From positions 1 to 35,060 of the forward strand of contig CAINLR010000041.1 of assembly GCA_903850425.1 (NCBI GenBank): a DNA stretch of 35,060 bases, written 5' to 3'. A program made the position numbers and the translations under genes. The DNA comes from an uncultured Verrucomicrobia subdivision 3 bacterium. Lineage in GTDB: Bacteria > Verrucomicrobiota > Verrucomicrobiia > Limisphaerales > UBA11358. The notes below the pieces were generated by a model that saw only the letters and a list, made by a program, of their open reading frames with translations, searched no databases and was not told where the DNA came from. Numbering within the stretch: the stretch's first letter is position 1; each line of letters opens with the position of its first letter. Positions 10 to 31,700 of the stretch are shown here, piece after piece.

Positions 10-520
10 GTCGCCCCGGTCGCGAGACCGGGGCGCGGATTGAAACTTGGTGATAGCTGCCAATGCCTTTGGCTTCCCAAGTCGCCCCGGTCGCGAGACC
101 GGGGCGCGGATTGAAACGACGTGCTCGTGGTGAAATCGTTCAAGGGAGGCAGTCGCCCCGGTCGCGAGACCGGGGCGCGGATTGAAACAAGTTGGCGGAG
201 ATCATGGAGCGCAACCCGCAAGTCGCCCCGGTCGCGAGACCGGGGCGCGGATTGAAACGACACAATAGCCCGCGCCGCGCCGCGCCGCCGCGGTCGCCCC
301 GGTCGCGAGACCGGGGCGCGGATTGAAACGCCGCCGCGCTCGACTGTCTCCCAGACCCGGAACGTCGCCCCGGTCGCGAGACCGGGGCGCGGATTGAAAC
401 AGCGAATCACCAGCCCGCGCCGCGTGCCGCCCCGGTCGCCCCGGTCGCGAGACCGGGGCGCGGATTGAAACATTGATTCTTACCCGCCATCCGGCAACCG
501 CATTGGTCGCCCCGGTCGCG
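10..520 (+). CRISPR. CRISPR array, leader-distal end: 7 perfect 37-nt repeats, 7 spacers, truncated terminal repeat
   Basis: Identical 37-nt repeats start at 10, 81, 152, 222, 293, 364 and 435. Each begins GTCGCCCCGGTC and ends GCGGATTGAAAC. The repeat folds into a perfect 10-bp stem (CGCCCCGGTC with GACCGGGGCG) closed by a GCGA tetraloop of GNRA type, followed by a 3' tail ending ATTGAAAC, which would give the usual 8-nt crRNA handle. Spacers are 47-80, 118-151, 189-221, 259-292, 330-363, 401-434 and 472-505, 33-34 nt each. The eighth repeat at 506 keeps only its first 15 nt (506-520) and then diverges. Damage at that end and the ATTGAAAC polarity both say that transcription runs on the plus strand and the leader lies left of position 1. 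Tail and spacer length resemble type I-C or related type I arrays, but 37 nt is long for I-C, so the subtype is open. No cas gene is in the window. Confidence 0.98.
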
Positions 521-887
521 TGACTCTGCTACCTTCTCCCAGCCGATGGGTGAAGGACATCTCCCGTTCCCACGGGCGAAGCTCCTCGGGCGCGGCAGCG
601 AAGCGATAACAATTAGCACCCCCGATACAGAGTTTTAGCCGGCCAAAGCAGAAGAGAAATTAAAATGCAAAGTTCGCGAAACTAAAATCGTTTACGACGA
701 TTTGAAATTGCGCGCCAGCGGTGCGAAGGTCCATCCAACGGCGATTTCGGTCAGGGCCTCGCCGAGGCGGACACGGGTTGGGCCGGGGATGCCCAACGGT
801 GCCGCCGCGACGACCATGAAGGCACACAGAGTCGCGTAAAACCCGACCTGTGCAGGCTGGCGAAGTGGCCGGGGAAGTGAGATTAAG
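521..887. other. Non-coding gap between CRISPR array and hypothetical gene, with one hairpin
   Basis: No convincing gene is present; long minus-strand frames here are shadows of the next gene. A stem-loop lies at 532-556: CCTTCTCCCA and TGGGTGAAGG pair at 9 of 10 positions around GCCGA. It has no T-run, so it is more likely a dispersed palindromic repeat than a terminator. A short inverted repeat (AAATCGT 685-691 with ACGATTT 697-703) also occurs. Confidence 0.5.
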
Positions 888-9896: not shown

Positions 9897-10117
9897 GATA
9901 GACCTGAAGCGATTTCATCGCCTCGCAAAGTCAAGCCGCTTTCCAGGGCGGCAACCAAGGCCAGTCCGTCTGTCCACTCCAGTGGGTGCGCGACGAGGAT
10001 AACGGGAAGTGATGGCGAAATACTATGTCGGCGGGCGGTGCCGTCAGAGATGCGGGGTCGCAAGTGAAACGATGGACTAGGACGGGAATACTTGAACTAT
10101 TGAACTATATCGAAAAT

Positions 10118-12670
10118 ATGAAAACTTCCTCTGTAAGACTTCTGTTCGCCGGCTTGGCGTTGGTGACGCTGAATACTCCGCTCCACGCGCAACCGGTCAT
10201 CATCAGCCAGCCGGTCAATCCGCCCGTAGTCTGGGGCGGCAATGCGACTTTCAGCGTGGTGGCCACCGGCCTTGGCCCGCTGACTTACCAATGGCAGTTG
10301 AACGGCACGAACCTGCCGAACAATATCATCACCACCGTGGCCGGCGGGCAACTTTCTGAAGGCGCGCCAGCCACAAACATTGTTCTCGGAGCTCCTCCGG
10401 GAGCGGCGGTAGATGCGCTCGGTAACTTGTATATTGCCGATAAAATCAACGAAGTTGTCCGCAAAGTCGGCACCAACGGTTTTTCAAAAATCATCGCCGG
10501 CACTGGGCTAATGGGTTTCTCGGGTGATGGCGGCACCGCTACCAACGCCTGGCTGAATTTTCCAAGTGCCGTCGCCGTGGACACGAATGGGAATTTATTT
10601 ATCGCGGATACGTTTAATTATCGCATCCGCAAGGTGGATACCAACGGAACCATAACTACGGTGGCTGGCAATGGCAGCAGTTTCTCCCCCTATGGTGATG
10701 GTGGTGCCGCTACCAACGCAGCGCTTCCGACGCCAACGAGTGTGGCACTTGATGGTTCGGGAAATTTGTATATCGCCGACTCGCAGAATCACACCATCCG
10801 CAAAGTGGACACGTTTGGAAACATCTCAACGGTGGCCGGCATCAATAGCGCCCTGGGCAGCTTCTCCGGAGACAACTTTTCGGCCAAGAGCGCGCACCTG
10901 AATGCTCCCAGTAGTGTGGCGGTGGACAAGGCGGGCAACTTGTTCATCGCGGACACCTTCAATTATCGCATCCGCAAAGTCACCGCGGCGACACAGAACA
11001 TCTCAACGATTGCGGGAAATGGCACGGCGGGCTATGCGGGTGACGGAGGCAGTGCCACCTCGGCAAAAATTTCAGCGGCTTACGGCATCGCGGCCGACAC
11101 CAATGGGAACGTGTTTGTGGCAGATGCCGGCAATCAGGTCATCCGTAAAATAACGAATGGCATTATTACTACGGTCGCGGGCAATGGTGTCTTTGGTTAT
11201 GCCAGCGACGGCAGCACGGCCACGAATGCCAGTTTGGCGTATCCGCTAGGCGTGGCGGTGGACCGGTTGGGAAATTTGTTTATTGCGGATTCCGCCAATA
11301 ACATGATTCGGAAAGTTGGGACCAACGGAAACATTCTCACCGTCGCGGGCCGGTGGTTCAATGAGGGTGAGCCGGCGACCAATGCTTGTCTTTCCCCGAT
11401 TGGCCTAGCGCTCGATTCGGTGGGCAATGTTTATGTGGCCGACAACGCCAACCACCGAATACGCAAGGTGGATACGAATGGAAATGTTTTCACCGTGGCC
11501 GGCAACGGCATGCCTGCGTTTACGGGTAATGGCGGGCCGGCGACTAATGCCAGCGTCAACAACCCGTGGGGTGTCAGCGTGGACAACGCAGGTAATTTGC
11601 TCATCGCTGATCAAGGTAATCGGCGGATTCGCAAGGTGGACACCAACGGCACCATCACCATCTTGGCCGGAAAAGGCACAGCTAATTTCTCAGGCGATGG
11701 CGGGGCGGCAACTAATGCCGGTATGTGGCCTCAAGGCGTCGCAGCAGATGCTTTTGGAAACTGTTTTGTTTTGGATACACCGTATAATCGTATTCGCAAG
11801 GTGGACACGAATGGAACCATCACCACTGTGGCGGGGAATGGCAACTATGCTTACACCGGTGATGGCGGACCGGCGACCAATGCGGCGATAGCTTACCCAA
11901 TCTCTATTTGGGCGGCTGCCGGAGGAAATCTATTCATTGCCCAACAGAGTTCACCTTGCATCCGCAAGGTGGAGGTCAATGGGATTATCAGCACCATCGC
12001 TGGAAACGGAACCTCCGGCGATGCCGGCGATGGGGGGCTGGCAACAAATGCACTTATACTAGCTCCAGGTGGTGTTTCAACCGATCCTGCCGGCAATATT
12101 TTCATATCCGACGGCCTTGCAGCGCGCGTTCGCAAGGTCGGGACAACTGGTGTTATTACAACCATCGCCGGCAATGGTGTTCCCGGAGTCCCGGTTGATA
12201 ATGTTGTAGGCAACAGTGCCAGTTTAGTTGTCCCGCGTGGAACTTGCCTGGATCGAAACGGAAACCTCTATATCGCTGATGTGGGTTCTGGTCGAATCCG
12301 TAAGTTGTCCTATGTGGACTATGCCAACCAACCGAGCTTCACGCTGACGAATGCAACTACGGATAGTCTGGGTAATCATTACACGGTCATCGTCACCAGC
12401 GCGTCCGGCAGCGTCACCAGCAGCGTGGTCACGGTGAACTTGCAACTACCACCCATCGCCCCGGCATTCACGGCGAGCAACGGTGTCTGCTCTTTTACTT
12501 GGAGTGCGGTGTCCAACCAAACCTATCAACTGGAATACACCACGAATCTGGTCGCGCCCAACTGGATTGATCTCGGCAGTCCCATCACGGCCACGAACAA
12601 TTCCGTGTCCACCACGGATGCCGTGGCCGGCGACGGTCAGCGCTTCTATCGCGTGCGACTCTGGCCGTGA
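10118..12670 (+). CDS. Secreted 12-fold NHL-repeat protein with a split Ig-like domain (850 aa)
   Basis: The ATG at 10118 opens a clear signal peptide (MKTSSVRLLFAGLALVTLNT, cut near LHAQ); the longer open frame upstream does not. Residues about 25-70 look like the first half of an Ig-like domain (IISQPVNPPVVWGGNATFSV, then LTYQWQLNGTNLPNN). Twelve NHL-type repeats follow, each with [IV]-x-T-[VI]-AG-x-G, GDGG-x-ATNA, GVAVD-x-GNL[FY]IAD and RIRKV. Twelve would make two six-bladed propellers or one large one. After the last repeat the sequence resumes what looks like the second half of the Ig fold (SFTLTNATTDSLGNHYTVIV, SASGSVTSSVVTVNL). The end is a C-terminal module (YQLEYTTNL...W...QRFYRVRLWP) shared with other secreted proteins here. 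NHL propellers usually bind proteins, sugars or nucleic acids; no catalytic motif is seen. The gene stands alone among repeats. Confidence 0.9.
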   Translation: MKTSSVRLLFAGLALVTLNTPLHAQPVIISQPVNPPVVWGGNATFSVVATGLGPLTYQWQLNGTNLPNNIITTVAGGQLSEGAPATNIVLGAPPGAAVDALGNLYIADKINEVVRKVGTNGFSKIIAGTGLMGFSGDGGTATNAWLNFPSAVAVDTNGNLFIADTFNYRIRKVDTNGTITTVAGNGSSFSPYGDGGAATNAALPTPTSVALDGSGNLYIADSQNHTIRKVDTFGNISTVAGINSALGSFSGDNFSAKSAHLNAPSSVAVDKAGNLFIADTFNYRIRKVTAATQNISTIAGNGTAGYAGDGGSATSAKISAAYGIAADTNGNVFVADAGNQVIRKITNGIITTVAGNGVFGYASDGSTATNASLAYPLGVAVDRLGNLFIADSANNMIRKVGTNGNILTVAGRWFNEGEPATNACLSPIGLALDSVGNVYVADNANHRIRKVDTNGNVFTVAGNGMPAFTGNGGPATNASVNNPWGVSVDNAGNLLIADQGNRRIRKVDTNGTITILAGKGTANFSGDGGAATNAGMWPQGVAADAFGNCFVLDTPYNRIRKVDTNGTITTVAGNGNYAYTGDGGPATNAAIAYPISIWAAAGGNLFIAQQSSPCIRKVEVNGIISTIAGNGTSGDAGDGGLATNALILAPGGVSTDPAGNIFISDGLAARVRKVGTTGVITTIAGNGVPGVPVDNVVGNSASLVVPRGTCLDRNGNLYIADVGSGRIRKLSYVDYANQPSFTLTNATTDSLGNHYTVIVTSASGSVTSSVVTVNLQLPPIAPAFTASNGVCSFTWSAVSNQTYQLEYTTNLVAPNWIDLGSPITATNNSVSTTDAVAGDGQRFYRVRLWP

Positions 12671-13225: not shown

Positions 13226-15409
13226 ATGAAATTTACATCCGTTAATTTTAAGATGCCGGTGACTCCCTTCGCAGTCGTGGCATTCGCCTTGGCCGGCCAC
13301 GTCCGGGGCGATGCCCCCGCGCTGGCCCAGCGGCCAGACCTGGTCTTTGCCGACTTTGAAGGGACAAACTTTGGCGATTGGAAAGTAACCGGGGAAGCTT
13401 TTGGCACTGCCCCGACAAAGGGAACTCTGCCAAACCAAATGGCGGTGGATGGATTTATGGGCGGCGGGTTCGCCAGTTCCTTTCACCACGGCGATGACAG
13501 CCAAGGCGAACTCAGCTCGCCGCCGTTCAAGGTTGAGCGGAAATATATTCAGTTTCTTATCGGCGGCGGTGGGTATGCCGGTAAGACGTGCGTCAATTTA
13601 CTCTGCGACGGCAAAGTCGTGCGCACAGCCACCGGGCCAAATACGCAACCCGGCGGCAGCGAGCATCTGGATTGGCAAGCGTGGGAGGTCGGCGAATTCG
13701 CAGGCAAAAATGTCGTTTGCAAAATCGTGGACGATGCTACTGGAGGCTGGGGTCACATCAGTGTTGACCAGATCATCCAGTCCGATCGCACGATCGCCGG
13801 GTTGATTCTGAGTGGGGCCGGACTTCCGCTCAGGATCAAGAAGCATTACTTGAATCTACCCGTCAAGAATGGCGCAACCAAGCGCACCTTGAAGCTGATG
13901 GTGGACGGTGTAAACCAACGTGAGTTCCAGATTGAACTGGCGGATGCCAAACCCGATTGGTGGACCTTCCTGGATGTCTCCATGTTCAAGGGACAAGCCG
14001 CGGTGCTACAGGCCGACAAACTGCCGGAAGACTCCCTGGGCTTGAAACAGATTGACCAGTCCGACGCGATCAAGGATGACCAGAGTATTTACCACGAAGC
14101 GTTGCGCCCGCAGTTTCATTTTAGTTCCCGACGCGGCTGGCTGAATGATCCCAACGGTCTGGTCTGCTACCAAGGCGAATATCACTTGTTCTATCAGCAC
14201 AATCCTTATGGTTGGGATTGGGGCAACATGACCTGGGGCCATGCCGTAAGCAGCGACTTGGTGCATTGGCAGGAGTTGCCCAACGCGCTTTATCCCGATC
14301 AACACGGCACGATGTTTTCCGGTTCAGCCGTGGTGGATTGGAACAACACAACCGGTTTTCAGACCGGGACCGAGAAGCCGTTGGTCGCGATGTTCACTGC
14401 CGCCGGGAAACCCTTCACGCAAGGCCTCGCGTTTAGCAACGATCGTGGTCGCACTTGGACCAAATACAAAAGTAATCCCGTGCTCGCGCACATTGCTGCC
14501 GAGAATCGCGACCCGAAAATGGTCTGGTATGCGCCGGAGAACAAATGGGTCATGGCGCTCTACCTTGATCGTAGCGATTACGCACTCTTCAGTTCGCCGG
14601 ATCTCAAGCAGTGGAAAAAGCTGAGTGATGTAAACCTTCCCGGCGACAGTGAATGCCCCGATTTTTTTGAGCTCGCGGTGGATGGCGATACACAAAACCC
14701 GCGCTGGGTTTTCTATGGTGCCACGGGTAACTATTTGGTTGGAAAGTTTGATGGCACCACCTTCACGCCCGAAACCAAACCACAGCGGATGCAAAACGGG
14801 AATGCCTGGTATGCGTCGCAAACCTACAGCGATATTCCAGCGGCCGACGGACGCCGAATCCTGATTCCGTGGGGACGGAACGGCGACCTTCACCGGGGCA
14901 TGCCGTTCAACCAGATGATGGGGCTCCCGGTCGAACTTACTCTTCACCAGACGGACTCGGGGCTGCGTCTCATGGTAAATCCCGTCAAGGAACTCGCGTC
15001 GCTGCGCCAGCGCACGCACACGCTCAAGTCGCAAATGCTGAAGCCCGGGGAAAATCCGTTGGCAGAAGTAAAAGGTCAATTATTGGAAGTGGCGGTAGAA
15101 ATCGCGTTGGGTGATGCCAAGGAAATCAGCCTCAATCTGCGTGGAATACCGGTGGTGTATGATGTGCAGAAACAGGAACTAACCTGTCGGGACAGGCACG
15201 CGGCGCTCAAGCCGGCGGCGGGAAAGATCCAACTGCGGATGTTTGTGGATCGCCCGGCCGTGGATATTTTTGGCAACCACGGTCAACTCTATATGCCCAT
15301 GGGCATGGTGGTCTCACCGGAGAACAAGTCGTTGGAACTCTCGGCTAAAGGCGGCAACGCACAGATCGAATCGCTGACGGTTTATGAGTTGCAATCCGCG
15401 TGGAAATAG
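13226..15409 (+). CDS. Secreted GH32 fructan hydrolase with DUF4980-like domain (727 aa)
   Basis: This is a levanase/inulinase-type beta-fructosidase. An export signal covers about residues 1-28 (hydrophobic VTPFAVVAFALAGHV); Met10 at 13253 is an alternative start. Residues about 37-190 form a beta-sandwich module (FADFEGTNFGDW ... GGWGHISVDQIIQSD) that the second GH32 protein at 17844 also has. A DUF4980-like stretch follows (about 195-285: KHYLNLPVKNGA ... DWWTFLDVSMFKGQ). The five-bladed catalytic domain has all three acidic motifs: WLNDPNG (305-311, nucleophile Asp308), RDP (428-430) and ECPDFFEL (acid/base Glu476). A C-terminal beta-sandwich ends with VDIFGNHGQLYMP. The gene lies 22 bp ahead of a sugar porter. 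Exo versus endo action and levan versus inulin preference cannot be decided. Confidence 0.95.
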   Translation: MKFTSVNFKMPVTPFAVVAFALAGHVRGDAPALAQRPDLVFADFEGTNFGDWKVTGEAFGTAPTKGTLPNQMAVDGFMGGGFASSFHHGDDSQGELSSPPFKVERKYIQFLIGGGGYAGKTCVNLLCDGKVVRTATGPNTQPGGSEHLDWQAWEVGEFAGKNVVCKIVDDATGGWGHISVDQIIQSDRTIAGLILSGAGLPLRIKKHYLNLPVKNGATKRTLKLMVDGVNQREFQIELADAKPDWWTFLDVSMFKGQAAVLQADKLPEDSLGLKQIDQSDAIKDDQSIYHEALRPQFHFSSRRGWLNDPNGLVCYQGEYHLFYQHNPYGWDWGNMTWGHAVSSDLVHWQELPNALYPDQHGTMFSGSAVVDWNNTTGFQTGTEKPLVAMFTAAGKPFTQGLAFSNDRGRTWTKYKSNPVLAHIAAENRDPKMVWYAPENKWVMALYLDRSDYALFSSPDLKQWKKLSDVNLPGDSECPDFFELAVDGDTQNPRWVFYGATGNYLVGKFDGTTFTPETKPQRMQNGNAWYASQTYSDIPAADGRRILIPWGRNGDLHRGMPFNQMMGLPVELTLHQTDSGLRLMVNPVKELASLRQRTHTLKSQMLKPGENPLAEVKGQLLEVAVEIALGDAKEISLNLRGIPVVYDVQKQELTCRDRHAALKPAAGKIQLRMFVDRPAVDIFGNHGQLYMPMGMVVSPENKSLELSAKGGNAQIESLTVYELQSAWK

Positions 15410-15431
15410 AAACCATCGCTAGCATTCTCGC

Positions 15432-16790
15432 ATGAAAAAACAAATCTTCTTCTGGTCGCTGGTTTCCGCCCTCGCCGGGTTTCTCTTCGGTTTTGACACC
15501 GTCGTCATTTCCGGCGCGGAAAAAACCATCCAGTCACTCTGGAACTTGGGGGCGGGATTGCATGGGGTGGTAATCGCTGCCGCCCTTTATGGCACGGTTT
15601 TGGGTTCGCTTTTGGGTGGGTGGCCAACGGACAGGTTTGGCCGTCGCGCCACGCTGCTTTGGATTGGCATCCTCTATGTCGTTTCGGCCGTCGGCTGTGC
15701 CTTCGCCAGCAACGCGTGGATATTCATCGCCGCGCGCTTCCTTGGCGGTCTGGGCATTGGTATCTCCACCGTGGCCGCGCCGCTCTACATTTCCGAGATT
15801 GCGCCGCCGGCCTATCGCGGGCGTTTGGCTGGCATGTTTCAATTCAACATCGTCTTCGGCATCGTCATCGCCTTTCTGTCGAATGCGCTCCTGGCCGGCC
15901 TCGGCGATAATGCCTGGCGTTGGATGATCGGCGTGGCGGTATTTCCCTCCCTCATCTACACGGCGTTTTGCTTTGGCATTCCCGAAAGCCCGCGCTGGCT
16001 GCTGGGCCGGGGCGATCGCGCCAAGGGAATTGCGGTGTTGAAATTGATTCAACCCGAAGCCTCAGACAGTGAAATCAATTTAGCGGCAGACAAAATCGTC
16101 GCCGCTTCGATTCCCGCCGCCACGCGGAAAGATTCAACGCGCTTTTGGAGTCGTGAGCTAAAGACGCCGCTCATGCTCGCGTTTCTAGTGGCCTTCTTCA
16201 ACCAGCTCTCTGGCATCAACGCTATTCTCTATTTCGCGCCGCGCATTTTTGAGATGACCGGCTTGGGCGCCAAAGCGGCCCTGTTGCAATCGGTCGGCAT
16301 CGGCCTGACCAATCTGGCTTTCACCTTCGTCGGCCTTTGGCTCATTGACCGTTTGGGGCGGCGCACGTTGCTGTTTATCGGTTCGTTCGGTTACATCCTC
16401 GCGCTGGGATTAGTCGCGTGGGCTTTCTTCACCGAACATTTCTCGATCGTTCCGGTGTGCATTTTTGGTTTCATCGCCGCCCACGCCGTGGGGCAGGGAG
16501 CGGTCATCTGGGTTTTAATCTCGGAAGTCTTCCCCAATAAGTTTCGCGCCGAGGGCCAGGCGCTCGGCAGCTTTACGCATTGGTTCTTCGCGGCGCTGCT
16601 CACAACCGTTTTTCCGATGATGATCAAGCTGTCGGGAGCCAATGACCAACCGCAGCGAGCCGGATTCATCTTTCTTTTCTTTTGCGCCATGATGGTGCTG
16701 CAACTGGTCTGGGTGAAATTCATGGTGCCCGAGACCAAGGGCGTGGCGCTGGAGGACATGGCTGCCCGATTGGACAATATCCGGCATTGA
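15432..16790 (+). CDS. MFS sugar porter, likely fructose/hexose uptake (452 aa)
   Basis: A twelve-segment inner-membrane symporter of the MFS sugar porter family, of normal length. The family motifs are in order: GGWPTDRFGRR after the second segment, RFLGGLGIGISTVAAPLYISEIAP, PESPRWLLGRG before the central loop, QLSGINAILYFAP in segment seven, WLIDRLGRRTLL, and VPETKGVALEDM at the C-terminus. Known relatives carry glucose, fructose, xylose or arabinose, usually with protons. Its place between a GH32 fructan hydrolase (22 bp upstream) and a fructokinase-like gene (3 bp downstream) makes fructose the best guess. The near-contact with the next gene points to translational coupling in one operon. 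Confidence 0.94.
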   Translation: MKKQIFFWSLVSALAGFLFGFDTVVISGAEKTIQSLWNLGAGLHGVVIAAALYGTVLGSLLGGWPTDRFGRRATLLWIGILYVVSAVGCAFASNAWIFIAARFLGGLGIGISTVAAPLYISEIAPPAYRGRLAGMFQFNIVFGIVIAFLSNALLAGLGDNAWRWMIGVAVFPSLIYTAFCFGIPESPRWLLGRGDRAKGIAVLKLIQPEASDSEINLAADKIVAASIPAATRKDSTRFWSRELKTPLMLAFLVAFFNQLSGINAILYFAPRIFEMTGLGAKAALLQSVGIGLTNLAFTFVGLWLIDRLGRRTLLFIGSFGYILALGLVAWAFFTEHFSIVPVCIFGFIAAHAVGQGAVIWVLISEVFPNKFRAEGQALGSFTHWFFAALLTTVFPMMIKLSGANDQPQRAGFIFLFFCAMMVLQLVWVKFMVPETKGVALEDMAARLDNIRH

Positions 16791-16793
16791 ACC

Positions 16794-17762
16794 ATGAAGG
16801 CTGAGATTCAAACCGAGCGCAAATTCATCGTGGTCGGGTTGGGGGAATTGTTGTGGGACTTGTTGCCGGGCGGGAAGCAACTGGGGGGCGCTTCGGCCAA
16901 CTTCGCCTACCACGCTCAGACGCTGGGGGCCGATGCCGTGCTGATCTCCCGAGTCGGCAACGATCCTCTCGGCCACGAGCTTCTGGCAAGACTGCGCGCA
17001 CGGCAAATGCGGACGGACGGGATCACCGTTGATCCGACCGCGCCGACCGGAACCGTTTCGATTGCGCTCTCCCCGGCCGGCCAGCCCACATTTACCATTC
17101 AGGAAAATGTGGCCTGGGATCACCTCACGGCCACCGATTTTGCGCGGGCCACGGTGGCCCGCGCTGACGCTGTTTGCTTCGGATCGCTGGGCCAGCGCAA
17201 TGAAGTTTCCCGGGGCGCGATCCGTTCGCTGGTGGGCGCCAGCCGCCCGGATGCCTTGCGCATATTGGATGTCAATCTCCGCCAGAATTATTTCTCAATG
17301 GAAATCATCGAGGCTTCGCTGCGGCTGGCCAATATTTTAAAAATCAACGACGAGGAACTTCCGGTCCTGGCGCGGTTCTTTGGTCTGCGAGGCGAGCCGG
17401 CGGAACAACTCGCCGAACTCGCCCGACGCTTCGAGTTGAAAGTGGTGGCGTTGACCTGCGGCGCGCGTGGCAGTTTATTTTACTCACAGGGCTGTTACTC
17501 GGAGGCAAAAGGGTTGCCGGTAAGCGTGGTGGATACGGTTGGCGCCGGCGATGCTTTCACGGCCGTCCTCACCCTGGGCATTTTGGCGGGCTGGAATCTT
17601 GACCGTATCAATCGTCGCGCCAACGAGGTGGCCGCCTATGTGGTTTCCCAACCGGGAGCGACGCCCCATTTGCCGGCGCACTTGCACTTGTCGCAGCCTT
17701 CACGAAGGCCCACATCAAGTCGGCAAGCTGCCCACTTACAAAGAGGCACCTCCGGCAACTGA
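16794..17762 (+). CDS. PfkB-family carbohydrate kinase, likely fructokinase (322 aa)
   Basis: A ribokinase-fold cytoplasmic kinase. The N-terminus has VVGLGELLWDLLPGGKQLGGASANFA, where the Gly-Gly and Asn residues contact the sugar. ISRVGNDPLGHEL follows, with the lid region near QPTFTIQENVAWDH. The ATP/anion-hole signature DTVGAGDAF lies at 247-255 with catalytic base Asp253. WDLLP and PTGTVSIAL resemble bacterial fructokinases of the ScrK/Frk type, and the location among GH32 and porter genes supports fructose to fructose 6-phosphate (or 1-phosphate). The last 25 or so residues (SQPSRRPTSSRQAAHLQRG) are unlike the family and read like run-on sequence, so the stop may have been lost and replaced. 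It starts 3 bp after the porter stop. Confidence 0.92.
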   Translation: MKAEIQTERKFIVVGLGELLWDLLPGGKQLGGASANFAYHAQTLGADAVLISRVGNDPLGHELLARLRARQMRTDGITVDPTAPTGTVSIALSPAGQPTFTIQENVAWDHLTATDFARATVARADAVCFGSLGQRNEVSRGAIRSLVGASRPDALRILDVNLRQNYFSMEIIEASLRLANILKINDEELPVLARFFGLRGEPAEQLAELARRFELKVVALTCGARGSLFYSQGCYSEAKGLPVSVVDTVGAGDAFTAVLTLGILAGWNLDRINRRANEVAAYVVSQPGATPHLPAHLHLSQPSRRPTSSRQAAHLQRGTSGN

Positions 17763-17843
17763 GCGGACCAGAAATAGGCATTAGGACTTGAGCCCTTAGT
17801 TAGCCATGCGACAATCGCAGCCATCGTCAATGGAAAGCCCTTT

Positions 17844-19724
17844 ATGACTCTGTTTTCAATAATTAATCGCCGCTTTGTCCTGCTGGCTTTCGCCGCGCAT
17901 TTGGCTCTACTCTTTAACTGCCGCGCCGGCGATCTGGCGATTGGAAAATTCGGCAGCACCAACTACGGCGATTGGAAGGCGACAGGAACGGCATTTCATT
18001 CAGGCCCGCCTCCAAGCGAATTGCTGCCGAAGCTGGAGATAGAAAATGCCAGCGACCAGCGTGTGGTCAGCAGCGAGATGGAAGGCGACGGGCCAACGGG
18101 AACCCTCACTTCACCCATGTTTAAAATCGCCCGGAAGTATATTTCGTTTTGCATCGGCGGCGGCGATTACGAGCGCGACACCTGTGTCAACCTGCTCATC
18201 AATGGCAAAATCGTGAAGAGTGCGACGGGCTGGCGCAGCGACAGGTTGGTGCCGACGAGTTGGGATGTCAGCCGATTCTGCGGGCAGAAGGCGCAGGTGC
18301 AAATCGTGGACGCTGCGAGCGGTGACTGGGGTCACATCAACGTGGCGCGGATTGTCCAGACCGACACGCCGGAGCGACTACCAGTTACGACCGGTTCGCT
18401 TTACCACGAAACTCTGCGCCCGCAGTTTCACTTCACCGCGCGGCAATGGACTATGGATCGCCTGAATCCCGGCGAACGTCAGGAAGGCTGGGTGAATGAC
18501 CTTAACGGACTCATCTATTATGATGGCGAGTATCACCTCTTTGCCCAGCGCTGGGCCAAATGTTGGATTCATGCGGTGAGCCGCGACCTGGTTCACTGGA
18601 CCGAACTACCACCTGCGTTCTGGGAGGAGCAGTCGGGCAGTGGCGTCCAGTCGGGAACGTGCGTGGTGGATTATCAGAACACTTCCGGACTATCGCGCGA
18701 CAAAGCTCACCCCGCGATGATCGCCTTCTATCCGCGCTGGGATAATCGCAGCCAGTGCATCGCCTACAGTCTGGATCATGGGCGCAGTTGGCAGCACTAC
18801 GAGAAGAACCCGATCTTGGTTCATCCGGAGCGCGACCCGAAAGTATTCTGGTATGCGCCCAGCAATCATTGGGTCATGATGCTTTATGGAGATGGCCAAT
18901 ATCATGTGCTTACTTCTTCAAATCTGTTGAACTGGAAGGATGAACACCATCCGATCAAGGACAGCTACGAGTGCCCGGATTTTTTTGAATTGCCCGTAGA
19001 TGGCGACCGCAGCCAGCTGAAATGGGTGTTGATTCAGGGCAACGGCAACTACTCCCTCGGCACCTTTAACGGCACTGAGTTCAAGGAGGAGACTGGACGC
19101 CATCCTTGCGATGTGGGGCCCAATTTTTATGCCACGCAATCCTGGCATAACACGGACACCGGCGACGGACGACGAATTCAAACCGCGTGGATGCGCGAGC
19201 CGTCTTTCCCGAACATGCCGTTCAACCAGCAAATCTCTTTCCCGTGCGAACTCTCGCTCCATAGCACGCCCAATGGCCTGCGCATTTTCCGCCAGCCCAT
19301 CGCGGAAATTGCCAGCCTGCATCACGCGCCAGACATCTGGAAAAACCGCACGTTGGAAGCGGGCGAAACCTTGCCGCTGGAACCGTCCGGGCAGTTCTAC
19401 CGCATCAAAGCCGAAGTCAGCATTCCTGATGGTGCCAAGCTCACCTTCAATCTCTGCGGCATCGCCGTGGTGCTGACCGCGAAGACAGTGGCCTCCGGCA
19501 CGGCTCCCGTCGCTGTCGCCGACCAGATCAGAACCGTGGAAATTTTGCTGGACCGCGCTTCAGTGGAAACCTTCGTCAATCAAGGGGAAATTTCCAACAC
19601 CCGTTTCGTCTTGCCTAGCGAAAACGGATTATCCGTCAAAGCGGAAGGTCGTCCCGTCACTCTTCAGTCATTGACCATTTACCCCCTCAACTCGGCCTGG
19701 CCGGATGGATTGGTTGATGAGTAG
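17844..19724 (+). CDS. Second secreted GH32 fructan hydrolase, variant nucleophile motif (626 aa)
   Basis: A paralogue of the GH32 at 13226, shorter because it lacks the DUF4980-like segment. The signal peptide runs to about residue 28 (RRFVLLAFAAHLALLFNCRAG). The shared N-terminal module is at about 32-175 (GKFGSTNYGDWKATGTAF ... GDWGHINVARIVQTD). In the catalytic domain the nucleophile motif reads WVNDLNG (Asp219), with Leu in place of the usual Pro; RDPK (330-333) and ECPDFFEL (Glu376) are intact. The region just before the nucleophile has an insertion (TARQWTMDRLNPGERQEGW), and the expected FYQHNP reads FAQRWAK, so the substrate pocket differs. It closes the fructan locus 81 bp after the kinase. 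It probably acts on a different linkage or chain length from the first enzyme. Confidence 0.93.
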   Translation: MTLFSIINRRFVLLAFAAHLALLFNCRAGDLAIGKFGSTNYGDWKATGTAFHSGPPPSELLPKLEIENASDQRVVSSEMEGDGPTGTLTSPMFKIARKYISFCIGGGDYERDTCVNLLINGKIVKSATGWRSDRLVPTSWDVSRFCGQKAQVQIVDAASGDWGHINVARIVQTDTPERLPVTTGSLYHETLRPQFHFTARQWTMDRLNPGERQEGWVNDLNGLIYYDGEYHLFAQRWAKCWIHAVSRDLVHWTELPPAFWEEQSGSGVQSGTCVVDYQNTSGLSRDKAHPAMIAFYPRWDNRSQCIAYSLDHGRSWQHYEKNPILVHPERDPKVFWYAPSNHWVMMLYGDGQYHVLTSSNLLNWKDEHHPIKDSYECPDFFELPVDGDRSQLKWVLIQGNGNYSLGTFNGTEFKEETGRHPCDVGPNFYATQSWHNTDTGDGRRIQTAWMREPSFPNMPFNQQISFPCELSLHSTPNGLRIFRQPIAEIASLHHAPDIWKNRTLEAGETLPLEPSGQFYRIKAEVSIPDGAKLTFNLCGIAVVLTAKTVASGTAPVAVADQIRTVEILLDRASVETFVNQGEISNTRFVLPSENGLSVKAEGRPVTLQSLTIYPLNSAWPDGLVDE

Positions 19725-25204: not shown

Positions 25205-28200
25205 TCACGGGCTACCGAGGCGGAAGAACTGTGAATCCATATTGATTGGTAGAGTAATATTGAAACCACCGTTGTTACTACCTGCCGTATTCGTGACGGG
25301 CCACCATACTGAGGGTGTGGTGAGATTGGTGGCGGCATACAGTTGCCAGTCATACGCCCAGCCCGGCCAAGTAATCGTCAGCGCATTCAAATTCGAGGCA
25401 AGATTCAGAGCCGGCAAGGGCAGAAGTATGCCGGCCACGGTCGAATAAATTCCGCTGCCGCACCCATTATTAGCGGTTACTTTGTAATAATTCATCTGCC
25501 CGCTGACGGCATTGGTATCCACATAACTGCTGGTGGCCAGGCCCGTCGCTGCTAACTGATAAGAAACTCCGCTGTCGGTGGAGCGCCAGAGAACATAGTC
25601 CGTCGCGCCTGCCGACAAAAACCAGTTCAGAGAAATTGTGCGGTTGCCCGCCGCGAGTGTCAGGCCCGTCGGTGCGGCGAGGGTGAGGCCGCCAGTCAAT
25701 CCGTATTTGCACTTGAGCGCGCGTTCCTGCCCCAGCCGGTCGGCATCCGTCAAAGGCGAGTTGTATATCTGAACTTCGGCAATATCGCCGGTAAAGTAGT
25801 TGTTCAAAGTTCCCTGGGCCCCAATGGCCAGCCAGTTGGGCGAAGTCAATGACTGGGTTCCGCCCGTGGCCGAGGCCACGAGCGTGCTATCCACATAAAG
25901 CAGGATGTTTCCAGTGCTTTTCGTCCGCTTGAAGGTCAGCACGTGCGGCAAGCCGTTGGCGAATCCGGTGCCAGAGTGGATGCTGGTATCGGGGTTGCCC
26001 GTGCCGGCGAGCATCTGGCCATTGGCATTTAGCGAAATACCGAAGTCATTGACGCTGCCGCTTTGCTCGCCATTCACCAATCCCGCTCCGCTCCAGAAAT
26101 CCGTGCCGGTGTTGATGCCCTGACTGCTCTTGCACACCAGGATCATGGTGAAATCATCCTGCACGGGACGGTAGAGCCAGAGATAAGTGCTGTTGGTGCC
26201 GGTAAACCGAACGGCCGGCAGTCCGTTGATGGCGCTGGTCGCATAAGTCGGTTGATTGGCGCTTAACGACTGGATCGCATTGTAGCCACTGCCGGTCATG
26301 TCCGGCCACAGGGAGATGGCCGCACCATTGTTCAGGTTCGTGATGGCATCCGATTTAAACCAGGCGGTCAGCGGGGTAGGGCTGGCGCTGACTTGGGCGG
26401 AGTTCGTGCTCTCACCGGCGAAGTTTACCGAAGAAACCACATAGTAGTAAGTCCGGTTGTTGGCTGCACTCATGTCGGCATAGCTGGTGGTGGCAACATT
26501 CGTGATGAGCTGGTATGGCCCTCCCGTGATCAGCGAACGTTTGAGGTTGTAGCTCGTGGCGGCGGCGGCATCGCCCCAACTCAACAGAACCTGGGCGTTG
26601 GCGGCTTTGGCGGTGAGGCTGGCTGGTGGAGACGTGGGTGCCACCAAACTGTTGGAGTAGAGCGCCGCCACTTCATTGCTGCTCAAGGTGCGTGTAAAAA
26701 TCTGAACCTCATCGAGACTGCCATTGAAGAAACCATTGCCCGAGGCAATGGCACCGAAGAGCAGGCGGGTCGAGGCGTTCAGAGTATTCCGATTGGCCGC
26801 GCCGGTGGCCTGCAAGTTGCCGTCAACATAGACGCTGACGAATCCAGTCGCCTGTTGTCTCGTCGCCACGCAATGATGCCAGGTGCCATTGTTGATCAGA
26901 CTGGTGGAGAGAATCGTGGTATCGGGATTGCCCACGCCAAAGCCGAGTTTGCCGCCGACCAAAGCAACTCCGAAATCGTTGGCCGCGCCGGAAGCGTCCC
27001 CATCCACCAGGCCGGCACCAGCATACCATTGACCGGTGCCGGCGGTTTGCGTGGTCTTGATCCAAAAGGCAATGCTGAAATCGTTCGCGACCGGATTAGT
27101 GATTTGAACCGAGCTATTCGACCCATTGAACACCAGGCACCCATTGAACTTGCCGGTCGCCGTCCAACTGGCGCCGATCAGATTGCCGGAGTTGTCATTG
27201 CCGGAGGCATCCAGCGTGAGTGTGCCGTTCGTGGCATCCAAAGACCAGTAGCCGATGCGATCCACCGGCACAGCGAATGGTGAAGCTGGCTGAGTGGGAT
27301 CAGCAGCTTGCAAGGCGGAGTAGGAAGAGATGCAGTCCCAAGAATAGAAGTTGGTGTCGGCGGGACTAGGATGTGCCCATTGGCACCAAGAAAGATTATC
27401 TGTCCTCCGAACCCGCCAGGCGGCCACGGCATTGGTTTGGAGCCAAGGTTCATAGAGGTTTTGTAGATTGCGACTCTTCATGAACCGGGTCATCCAGCGC
27501 AGGAAGATGGCATTGAATCCGGAGTTGTTCCCGGCAATGCCATATTCGGGAAGAATCCCGCCACCGCTCAGGCTCGTCATGGTGAACTGGGCGGCGCGCA
27601 TTGCATCATTGGTGAGTCCGAGGAAATGAGCTGCGCCCAGAAAGGTGCCCTGATTGTAAGTGCTGGCCCAGGTGCTAATCACACCATTCGTGCCGATGGC
27701 GTCGTAGATTGCACCTGAGTTGGTATTAAATAGAACCGAACGCTCCCAATAGTAGATGTTAGTGGCTTTGTTCCAGTAGTTCGTGTCGCCATAGATTTGG
27801 TAGAGCAGATAGGCCGCGATGGCACCCGGACCGTTGACGCAGGCGTTCTTGGAGGCCTTGTCGCTATCGCGCCAATATAAACCACCGCCTAGTTTCGTGT
27901 CCCAGGCGCGGGCATAACAGGCATCGAAATTGGCCCTGGCGATATTGCAGTAGTTGGTTTTGCCGGTGTCCACTCCGCCCCGGGCAAAGGCGATGACCGC
28001 CCACAGAATGTCATCGTTGTATTCATTGTAGGTCCAGGCGGAGCCATTGTTCTTGAGGAAGCCATTCAGCAAATTGGTGATCATGGTCTGGGCGGTCGTA
28101 TTGGTGTTCCACTCATAGGCATCAATCACGCATTCAATCATCTCGGCCTGGCCCCAGAAATAGGCGATGCCACCCGTCTGCGTGTCCTTGATATATCCGT

Positions 28201-28357
28201 TCGTGCCGCTCTGGGAGTAGAAGGCGGAATGGAACGCACTAAAAACGGTGCTGGCATCCTTCGTGGTGAAGGCGGAAGCTGATAGTTGGGCCAGCAGCAG
28301 GAATAACCAAGCGAGCAGCGCTATTATCGGCCGGGGGTGACGCCAGAGAAACCTCAT
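25205..28357 (-). CDS. Secreted GH76-type alpha-mannanase with two LamG and two Fn3 domains (1050 aa)
   Basis: A signal peptide (hydrophobic IIALLAWLFLLLAQLSASAF) leads into an (alpha/alpha)6-barrel domain, about 30-350, of GH76 type, a family of endo-alpha-1,6-mannanases. The paired catalytic aspartates fit YNDDILWAVIAFAR (Asp115, Asp116), and GGGLYWRDSDKASKNACVNG is the second conserved block. LamG-type lectin folds at about 365-575 and 670-885 share GAGLV[DN]G-x-x-SG-x-x-NDFG and GNPDT, so they are related copies. Fibronectin III-like domains follow each (about 580-665 and 890-980). The end (WQLYAATNLTTPSVWWPVT ... QFFRLGSP) is the C-terminal module shared with other secreted proteins here. 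The expected role is outer-surface cleavage of mannan or mannan-like glycan with sugar-binding helpers. It is transcribed away from the gene at 28765. Confidence 0.88.
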   Translation of the reverse strand: MRFLWRHPRPIIALLAWLFLLLAQLSASAFTTKDASTVFSAFHSAFYSQSGTNGYIKDTQTGGIAYFWGQAEMIECVIDAYEWNTNTTAQTMITNLLNGFLKNNGSAWTYNEYNDDILWAVIAFARGGVDTGKTNYCNIARANFDACYARAWDTKLGGGLYWRDSDKASKNACVNGPGAIAAYLLYQIYGDTNYWNKATNIYYWERSVLFNTNSGAIYDAIGTNGVISTWASTYNQGTFLGAAHFLGLTNDAMRAAQFTMTSLSGGGILPEYGIAGNNSGFNAIFLRWMTRFMKSRNLQNLYEPWLQTNAVAAWRVRRTDNLSWCQWAHPSPADTNFYSWDCISSYSALQAADPTQPASPFAVPVDRIGYWSLDATNGTLTLDASGNDNSGNLIGASWTATGKFNGCLVFNGSNSSVQITNPVANDFSIAFWIKTTQTAGTGQWYAGAGLVDGDASGAANDFGVALVGGKLGFGVGNPDTTILSTSLINNGTWHHCVATRQQATGFVSVYVDGNLQATGAANRNTLNASTRLLFGAIASGNGFFNGSLDEVQIFTRTLSSNEVAALYSNSLVAPTSPPASLTAKAANAQVLLSWGDAAAATSYNLKRSLITGGPYQLITNVATTSYADMSAANNRTYYYVVSSVNFAGESTNSAQVSASPTPLTAWFKSDAITNLNNGAAISLWPDMTGSGYNAIQSLSANQPTYATSAINGLPAVRFTGTNSTYLWLYRPVQDDFTMILVCKSSQGINTGTDFWSGAGLVNGEQSGSVNDFGISLNANGQMLAGTGNPDTSIHSGTGFANGLPHVLTFKRTKSTGNILLYVDSTLVASATGGTQSLTSPNWLAIGAQGTLNNYFTGDIAEVQIYNSPLTDADRLGQERALKCKYGLTGGLTLAAPTGLTLAAGNRTISLNWFLSAGATDYVLWRSTDSGVSYQLAATGLATSSYVDTNAVSGQMNYYKVTANNGCGSGIYSTVAGILLPLPALNLASNLNALTITWPGWAYDWQLYAATNLTTPSVWWPVTNTAGSNNGGFNITLPINMDSQFFRLGSP

Positions 28358-28764
28358 GGAATTGTTTTGGAGAGAGACTTCTTTGCAGGAAGGTTTCGTG
28401 CGTCCCCCGCATCCGGCCTTCGGCCGGGAGGAGGGGGTGCTTCGCCAAGCCGAGGTTCGTGGAGTGGTAATGACATGCCGTGCATCCTAATTAGATAGCC
28501 GATGCGATGCCAAAAGTCCTGTGGCATGAAATGGCCACGTTCGGACGGGTGGCCGCCAGGCTGAAATTTGTTGTGAGTGGCCTGCCGGCCAAAGGAAGGG
28601 GGCGAGTGTGCCCGCTGCAATTGTATGATTGCACTCGCTTCCTTGGTGTGGTAGCTTTTGGCCGTTACCCGATATAGCCGAAATCATCAACAAGCAAACA
28701 CTTGTCAAACCAAAACTCACACGGCAGAGACTCACAAGAGAAACCCACCAAACTGACACAAACT
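28358..28764. promoter_or_regulatory. Divergent control region for the GH76 and beta-strand-repeat genes
   Basis: These 407 bp separate two divergent genes for large secreted proteins and must hold both promoters. A perfect hairpin, CCGGCC-TTC-GGCCGG (28413-28427), lies 56 bp upstream of the GH76 start, within its probable 5' leader. Neither start has a Shine-Dalgarno sequence. I cannot assign -35/-10 boxes with confidence. Confidence 0.45.
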
Positions 28765-31700
28765 ATGAGAACCTCACCCTCAATCCTCGTTAGTGCCGCA
28801 CTGGCCGCGCTGGGACTTTTTGTTAGCCCGGCGGCCCCGGCGGCGAGTTCAACGTTCAATGCCGCAGCCAGCGCGCTCTGGAACAACACCGCCAACTGGC
28901 TGGGCGGAACACTCCCAAACATTGGCGACGACTTGATCATTCAGGACAGCACCACGCTTACCAACGGTCTGACATTGAACGACGTCTCTCATACTGTCGG
29001 CTTGGTTGAACTCGGAACCACCGGGACGCGGTCAACACAGTTCTTTATCCGAGGCAATTCCACCGGTTCCGGTTCAACTACCCTTACCATCACCAACGGG
29101 TTGATGTCTAATTACGGTAATAGCGGCATCGCCAACGGGAACTTGTCGCTTCAATTGCCCGTCATCGTGCAAGGCGACCAGACGTGGTCGGTCAGCGGCA
29201 ACGTGCCCGCTTCGACCAGTGACTACGGAGTGGTGCTGACGGTTGGCACCAGTGGCACCCAGCGAGCGCTCACACTCAATGGGAAATTAACCAAGACCGG
29301 ATCGGGAGAGCTGGTCTTCATTGGCCAGAACGTGGGCAACGGCGACATCGTGGTGAATCAGGGGTGGCTCAAACTCAATGCTGGGTCTTCCACCTTGGTG
29401 ACCGTGGGCGGCACCGGCTCCATCACGGTAAATAACGGGGGCACCTTCATGATCGCGAAGAACAGTGGATCGCTCAACATTACCAAAGCGATCAACCTGA
29501 ATAATGGTGCCACCTTCCGCTTGGGCGGAAACAGCGGGACGCTGAATGCCGTCGGCTCACTCATCACTTTTAATGGCAATGTGCCCATGATTGTGGACTA
29601 TGGTTCGCTGTTGCTCGACTTCACCAATACTTGGACTGGCTCAATTACCAGCACCATCACCGGGAATGGCGGCACTAATACCTTCTGGAGCGACAACACC
29701 TCGCTCAGCGGGATCATCAACAACAACGGAACTTTCAAGATGCGCTTCGCCTCGACTGCACCCGGCACGGCGAATTCCTGCAGCCCTAATGTTGCCTGGG
29801 GGTTGAATAATGCCGCTGCCTATTATGAAGTCTATGGGGCGGCACTGAACCTGAATCTGGGTTCCTTGGGCGGCACGGCGGGCATCGTCCGCAACAGCAA
29901 TACCAACGGTGCGCTGGCCACGGTGACGGTGGGGGCGTTGAACACTAGCACGACTTTTGGCGGCACGCTCGCCGACAATACCGGCCAACTCGGGCTGATA
30001 AAAGTGGGCACCGGCACCCTGACTCTTACCGGGGCCAACACTCACAATGGCGGCACCGTGATCAGCAACGGAACCATTGCGCTCCAAGGCAGCGGCTCGA
30101 CCGGTCCGGGCACGGTGACGGTGAATGGCGGTGCGACACTCAGCGGCAGTGGCGCGGCCAGCGGCGCGGTGACCGTTCTGAATAGTGGCGTGATTCAAGC
30201 GGATGGCGGGGCTGGCTCGCCGCCTTTGAACGTCGGTTCACTGACGTTGGGGACGACCGGCACGGATCAGACTACGACGCGGGTGAACGCGTATCTAGGC
30301 GGCAAGGTGGCCAGCGGGGCTTTGACGGTCGCGGGAACCAATGTGATTAGCATCATCGGTGCCGCGCCCGCCGTGGGCGTGTATGACCTCATCTCCTATA
30401 CCGGCGGCAGCATCGGTGGCGCTGGCTTTGCCGGATTCAAATTGGGTGATCTTCCCTTTGGTGTCGCCGCCGTGTTGCAGGACTCGGGAACGGCGGTGCA
30501 GTTGAATATCACCGCCATCACCGTCGAGTCGAGCATATGGGTCGGCAATGTGTTGAGTGCTTGGAACCTGGCTGGCGGACTCGAATGGAAGGGTGCCAAC
30601 TCCGGCAATCCTCAACCCTACCATGATTTATACCCGGCCTTTTTTGATGACTCCGCCACGAGTTTTACGGTCAATGTCACCACGAATGTGGCTCCGGCAA
30701 TCGTCGGTATTACCAATACAACACATAACTACACCTTCACCGGCACCGGTGGCATCTCCGGTAGTGCCCCGTTCGCCAAGGACGGAACCGGCACCGTCAT
30801 CTTTGCCACCAGCAACAGTTACACCGGCGGCACCTTCGTGACCAATGGCGTGCTGCAAGTCGGCAACGGTGGAACCAATGGTTCCTTGATTGGCCCGGTG
30901 ATGAACAATGGGGCCTTGGTTTTCAATCGGTCCGATAACTCGGTGTATGCGGGAGCAGTCAGCGGCACCGGCACGGTGGAGCAGCGCGGTCCCGGCGTGC
31001 TGACATTTAGTGGCAACAACACCTTCCTCGGCGTCACTACTATCAGTGCCGGCACGCTGGCTACTGGTAGCGGCACGGCTCTGGGTGATACCAACGCCAA
31101 CACCGTGGTTGCCAATGGCGCCACGCTGGATGTGAATGCGCAGAACCTCGGCATGGAACCCATCACAGTCCAGGGCGCGGGCGTTGGCGGCGCAGGCGCG
31201 ATCGTGAACAACCTTGCCGACAATCAGAATGCCCTGCGTTATGTGACCCTCACCGGCCCGACGACCTTCGGCGGCGGTTTCCGTTGGGATGTCCGCGATC
31301 CGGCCCCGGCGAATGATCCCAATGGCGGTGTCAACGCCTACCTCATTGGCAATGGCAACACCCTGACCAAAGTCGGCACGAATGTTTTTGCCTTCATTAA
31401 TGCGGGTGACCTGGGCCTGGCCGACATCAATATCATGGCCGGCACGATGACGTTTTCGCGTTCCACTTTCCCCGGTAACTCCGCCAACAAGATTACCGTC
31501 TATCCGGGCGCTACCCTCCAGTTCCATCGCACGAGCGAGTATCTCAACAATGTCATCAACAAAGTCCTGGTGATGACCAACGGTAACATTGCCATTGAAT
31601 CCAACGGTCTCACTAATTGGTTTAGTGGGCCGGTGACTTTGAATGGTCCAAATACCGTGAACGTGCCTACCTCTGCCACCGGGCTGGTGCTGCAAGGTCC

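Follow-up and report, generated by a model that had tools for sequence, protein, structure and literature searches.

An Ig-like domain interrupted by twelve NHL repeats, and its recurrence in a verrucomicrobial order

The window, by which we mean the whole stretch of 35,060 nucleotides analysed here, carries at 10118-12670 on the forward strand (ORF 10025-12670, ATG at 10118) a gene for a protein of 850 aa, P0001, in which a signal peptide is followed by one half of an Ig domain, twelve NHL repeats, the other Ig half and a C-terminal domain (Table 1). The start that follows the ATG is signal-peptide-like as read from the sequence, and from it we infer secretion. The repeats are recognized in Pfam as TEN_NHL (2e-75) and NHL (2.2e-48), and an HMM parse places the twelve blades in residues 70-732. 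The C-terminal domain, which ends in RFYRVRLWP, retrieved no family in a Pfam search, and it has at least 120 matches in the same genome at E <= 1e-3 (150 of 231 candidates scored); in the ORFs of this genome that were read and have it, it stands at the C-terminus, a placement that might be that of a sorting or anchoring domain. Two further ORFs of the window, 25205-28357 and 28702-33330, end similarly to P0001, a resemblance seen by eye only; the former encodes a GH76 domain and laminin-G-like domains.

Table 1. Parts of P0001 and their positions in the window
Feature	Residues	Window position	Strand	Basis
Putative signal peptide, ends LHA, followed by Q	1-24	10118..10189	+	Sequence reading
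Ig half 1, strands A, A', B, C, C', PVIISQPV...TYQWQLNGTNLPNN	25-69	10190..10324	+	Ig model 2-47
Strand d1, IITTVAG, probable ring 2 closing strand	70-76	10325..10345	+	Model 1 strand; alignment ranges
Predicted ring 1, six abcd blades	~77-411	10346..11350	+	AlphaFold2 pLDDT; structure alignment
Predicted ring 2, five abcd blades and abc of the last	~412-732	11351..12313	+	Model 1 strands 427-730; 6xg7 alignment
Ig half 2, strands E, F, G, PSFTLTN...SGSVTSSVVTVNL	733-778	12314..12451	+	Ig model 44-81
C-terminal domain, ~70 aa, ends RFYRVRLWP		12452..12667	+	At least 120 own-genome matches

Downstream of P0001, Pfam identifies two GH32 genes (window 13226-19724), and transporter-like and PfkB-like ORFs can be read between them; together these suggest fructan use by a probable gene cluster. 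A conserved operon was considered as a clue to the function of P0001 and rejected: no neighbouring gene, as judged by eye, is common to the flanks of the five 12-blade relatives L256-L260, and the neighbours of P0001 are not common to its relatives. A scan for promoters and terminators added no clue.

The initial annotation of this locus had proposed that half an Ig-like domain, twelve NHL repeats and a matching second Ig half follow one another in a single protein, and sequence comparison confirms that P0001 is an Ig domain interrupted by twelve NHL repeats. Run against the whole protein, Ig_3 finds the first half alone (residues 26-68, profile 2-44 of 78), at 22.2 bits, below the cut-off of 30; the N half by itself scores 26.9 bits, and the C half with the C-terminal domain, searched alone, retrieves no Pfam family. 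Joining the two halves extends the Ig_3 match to profile 2-77 of 78 and raises it to 34.4 bits, above the cut-off; the joined halves score 20.8 bits against I-set, below its cut-off of 23.7. An Ig model of 83 positions, made from 40 uninterrupted Ig domains of the same genome and of relatives, with E-values computed for a nominal 1000 sequences, is tiled by two matches on P0001, residues 26-71 at positions 2-47 (E 2.7e-13) and residues 735-773 at positions 44-81 (E 2.3e-6). These two tiling matches and the completion of Ig_3 by joining establish both halves and the twelve-repeat insert between them, so that the first segment pairs with the last as had been claimed; independent complete domains on either side of the propellers are rejected at the level of sequence, since the two matches tile one Ig model. 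A chance match of the C half is likewise rejected, as it scores 29.3 bits alone against the Ig model and none of 5000 shuffles reached this value (best 14.8).

Alignment with uninterrupted Ig domains gives the same picture. In a MAFFT alignment whose added rows are Ig domains alone, 18 of 18 uninterrupted Igs split across the insert, at 25-73 and 741-775, bridging a gap of ~670 residues; a first set had split 20 of 20 at 25-66 and 739-775, with ~5 residues straying to 137-141, and adding NHL rows misplaced the C half, so the Ig-only set was used instead. Identity between the joined halves and four intact Igs from the genome of P0001 is 35-44%, with small gaps in the alignment where the halves meet. 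The join falls at GTNL...TNSTLTL of the intact domains, which we take to be the C'-E connection, the strand names being assigned from general knowledge of the fold.

The split domain recurs within the order. At E <= 1e-95, a profile of the single-ring unit (length 420) had matches in 42 of the 320 genomes searched within the order, and 49 loci fetched from 32 genomes contain 69 two-half Igs; by a count made by hand, these 32 genomes represent eight families. Between the two halves lie six blades in 52 cases, twelve in 8 and five in 3, with four, seven and eleven in one case each and no blades in three; the counts of six and twelve fit closed six-bladed rings. The four-blade unit contains an assembly gap (X), and the seven-blade unit spans 351 residues and so probably holds six blades; the units with five or eleven blades (at L097, L179 and L095) are either real variants or assembly-collapsed repeats. 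In the 66 bladed units the median end of the N match is model position 46 (42-52 in 56), and the median start of the C match is also position 46 (41-50 in 59). Runs of at least four blades have both halves in 64 instances, the N half only in one, which is truncated by a contig end, and by the automatic rule the C half only in seven, a sample biased towards co-occurrence because the loci were picked with a profile that holds both halves. In three of these seven the N half is visible by eye, and the other four begin at or near the start of the open frame; their N half may have been lost, or may be located outside that frame.

In the genome of P0001 itself, scoring 150 of 241 candidates gave at least 149 Ig matches at E <= 0.01. 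Five split Igs with NHL blades were found in it: P0001, one in the 1144-aa open frame L032, and three in the 1539-aa open frame L031, where Igs split by six blades each alternate with intact ones. Five relatives with twelve blades, 48-61% identical, are found in five other genomes of the same genus. Among 387 genomes of the phylum searched at E <= 1e-60, no end-to-end profile match was found outside the genome of P0001; the widest matches cover 1-387 and 15-407 of 420, and their loci (L193, L194) are without a two-half unit. Both profile thresholds (1e-95 and 1e-60) are strict and can conceal weaker split-Ig cases. Many of the NHL matches listed in the order are without Ig halves (e.g. 47-377 of 420).

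Two AlphaFold2 models were made, and the predicted structure that had been proposed as a check came out in parts: good propellers in model 1 and good Ig halves in model 2, but never both in one model. Model 1, made with six alignment rows, none of them over the Ig, has a mean pLDDT of 75.4, with block values of 66-95 over 71-730 and below 50 in both Ig halves. In model 2, made with 18 Ig rows, block pLDDT is 85-95 for residues 21-70 and 86-96 for residues 741-780; the Ig strands are at 27-30, 36-38, 43-46, 48-50, 55-61 and 64-73 in the N half and at 740-743, 755-761, 764-767 and 774-776 in the C half. The propellers of this model are poor (mean pLDDT 64.7, pTM 0.43). Model 2 is partly circular because its Ig rows span both halves, and it is to be read as finding the sequence compatible with an Ig fold, not as finding that fold blind. 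Foldseek and VIA, run on model 2, each gave no Ig chain among the 50 matches listed, propellers filling both lists.

Model 1 predicts that the NHL repeats form six-bladed rings. The two six-bladed propellers expected from the repeat number are thereby retained, at the level of prediction, with one refinement: model 1 and the linker lengths indicate that ring 1 is probably nested in ring 2 and that the two do not lie side by side. The strands of model 1 are 70-76 standing alone, then six abcd blades to 411, then five abcd blades and a final abc to 730. The simplest reading of a strand before the first blade and an abc at the end is that strand 70-76 closes ring 2; ring 2 would then be interrupted by ring 1 directly after its closing strand, so that both ends of ring 2 face one Ig loop. 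In VIA, 6g7w aligns on residues 87..411 (Z 43.7, rmsd 1.8, 316 aligned), Pizza6 on 85..402, and 6xg7 on 68..730 (Z 35.3, rmsd 2.1, 279 aligned of 288); the ranges of some NHL structures are 68..730 or 63..732. These ranges give the first and last aligned residue only, and the strand exchange is read from them; strand assignment by AlphaFold2 can, moreover, be misled by near-identical blades.

The sequential order of rings is the usual one for tandem propellers, and it offers the main alternative: the same Ig socket, with ring 1 running from d1 to c6 and ring 2 from d7 to c12, the Ig loop being closed by the ends of two different rings. We consider this unlikely, since the alignment ranges of model 1 place d7 within ring 1 and group d1 with ring 2, and since the segment from c6 to d7 has the length of an ordinary hairpin. 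Across the 12-blade units, c-to-d turns are of 13 residues in 79 of 83 measured (12 in three, 14 in one), and the turn from blade 6 to blade 7 is of 13 residues in all five measured; a turn of ordinary length implies that d7 belongs with blade 6. The d-to-b linkers point in the same direction, being short at positions 1 and 7, the would-be ring crossings (24-25 residues in P0001 and L162-L165), against a median of 29 at each position of six-blade units. A blade-1 linker of at most 27 residues occurs in 7 of 9 units of 11-12 blades and in 4 of 50 six-blade units, which are not independent of one another; counted by lineage the comparison becomes 3/5 vs 4/50 (Fisher p 0.012), a rough value because L166 adjoins L164 on the tree and its counting as a lineage of its own was chosen by hand. 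In the comparison of blade 7 with other positions, on which the nested reading does not draw, one of the 78 linkers measured has 27 residues or fewer. Linkers were taken from the HMM parse, except in L162, L164 (blade 7), L165 and L095, where they were read from the sequence. Some room for the sequential order is left by two exceptions, L166, in which linkers 1 and 7 are of normal length and blade 6 is odd, being short by eye (outside the HMM parse), and L169, with a normal linker 1; it is left also by the identities among blades, which have no +6 periodicity in a parse that merged some blades. In L084, linker 7 has 28 residues.

Twelve-blade NHL arrays in which no Ig half was detected were also seen in Geobacteraceae and acidobacterial genomes (L041-L044). 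By eye, three of them (L041, L042 and L044) have short blade-1 linkers, and nested double rings may therefore be more general.

In the nested arrangement, the two Ig halves would fold as a single sandwich within the same chain. A swap of halves between two chains, which would make the split Ig a dimer or fibre joint, is improbable: sequence cannot separate pairing within a chain from pairing between chains, but in a velcro-closed ring, which starts with strand d and finishes with abc, the two ends should be adjacent, which fits a single local loop, and single-ring units keep the same junctions. Least probable of all is that the Ig is a remnant broken by the insertion and that the propellers alone matter, a reading that the disorder of both halves in model 1 would suit but that is at odds with 69 units, drawn from eight families, in which the Ig model still recognizes both halves, with the YxW and C-half G/N-x-Y-x-V motifs, mostly kept by eye at the junctions compared, and with a P0001 C half that scores far from its shuffles.

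NHL blades are not the only insert. Three two-half Igs carry no blades and instead have a GGxGYT repeat of ~70-80 aa, unrelated to NHL, which splits the Ig model at 39-41 and 40-41, slightly before the NHL repeats, with one N match reaching 54. GGxGYT inserts at about the NHL insertion point were seen in L040, L086, L178 and L181. L040 holds the sixth split Ig of the genome of P0001; the halves match the model at 2-70 and 42-83, and a Pfam search with its insert retrieved no family. A FastTree tree without support values was computed over 83 columns from the halves of 68 split Igs, the one unit with X among the 69 being left out, together with 64 intact Igs. On this tree the split state changes 7 times, against at least 36 times in 300 label shuffles, and the ring-hosting Igs group together, although 83 columns resolve little. 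The three GGxGYT-hosting Igs lie nearest each other and then nearest intact Igs, suggesting independent use of the site. Double-ring Igs fall at several places in the tree, and L084 adjoins single-ring Igs from its own genome. Whether the C'-E loop of this Ig subfamily serves the secreted rods of the order as a general socket for interchangeable folded inserts (one NHL ring, two nested rings or GGxGYT repeats), with doubles that arose more than once, rings alternating with intact Ig spacers, modular display and three-level nesting, we judge to be evenly balanced; the repeated origin of the doubles rests on a weak tree.

Both NHL rings and Ig domains are familiar modules, and the logic of an insert within an Ig fold is known from integrin beta, in which, according to PMC1538996, a PSI domain hosts an Ig-fold hybrid domain that in turn hosts an A/VWA domain. 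The layout that the sequence of P0001 gives is similar in placing a whole domain inside an Ig-fold domain and in its three-level nesting; it differs in that the insert is a propeller, whereas that of integrin beta, an animal receptor, is a VWA domain. P0001 was rejected as an integrin, as it has no PSI, VWA or EGF Pfam family at E <= 1 and shares the layout alone.

By sequence, the blades fall in the NHL family of the teneurins (TEN_NHL, as above), and P0001 matches PDB 9ifo at 3.4e-80, with 47% identity over 321 aligned residues. As described in PMC6425310 and PMC13018210, teneurins and bacterial teneurin-like proteins have a six-bladed NHL ring between the FN-plug and the YD shell; the former source also describes the Ig-like domains of the bacterial proteins as separate N-terminal repeats and gives teneurin NHL a part in the specificity of homophilic contacts. 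Membership in this group was rejected, P0001 being without an FN-plug, YD or Rhs Pfam family at E <= 1, as was membership in the scytonemin families ScyF and ScyD-ScyE (142.1 bits against an NCBIfam cut-off of 350, and 64 against 80). The ring fold is shared with single six-bladed NHL structures (NHLRC2 6g7w, SOQ1 7djj, Thin 6xg7, PknD 1rwl and Pizza6), whose titles, the level at which they were compared, name no Ig host. The N half, the only half so compared, matches Ig repeats of phage tails (9ncf_S, 4e-20; 9c2d_S, 6.2e-11), and 18 I-set-like Igs on viral contigs, the rows of the Ig-only alignment, are, unlike that of P0001, uninterrupted. Viral sequences scanned with P0001 contained no relative, and one DNA-pattern search gave no match. 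The initial annotation had called the architecture uncommon; this agrees with a literature search that found no Ig hosting a propeller, weak evidence of absence given that subscription papers lay mostly outside its scope and the sources were seen in part, but the architecture is recurrent in the order and not unique to P0001.

At the level of sequence, the split Ig, its insertion point, the twelve blades, their recurrence and the other insert at about the same point are demonstrated, and we consider it likely that a secreted Ig socket holds ring 2, which holds ring 1. The socket would be the I-set-like Ig domain of P0001, in which the C'-E connection, as a rule only a few residues long, would be opened and would hold a closed NHL beta-propeller by both of its ends. 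Ring 1 would be inserted in this anchored ring 2, after the closing strand d1 and before the first full blade of ring 2. Such a double tether would fix the orientation of the rings, whose faces may bind an extracellular ligand, be it a glycan, a peptide or another cell. The Ig and C-terminal domains would keep the protein on the cell surface or close to it. The function would then probably be extracellular ligand display, a proposal that draws on the start sequence for secretion, on L031, where Igs that host rings alternate with intact ones, for display and, by analogy, on the roles of NHL rings elsewhere for ligand binding.

In family scans such a protein is reported under its NHL repeats, and one half of the split Ig goes unmatched. 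If the proposed arrangement is correct, an Ig loop tolerates inserts of ~70 to 680 residues, which would be useful for domain grafting, and a ring within a ring within an Ig domain would be an extreme case of natural domain insertion, with many natural variants to compare.
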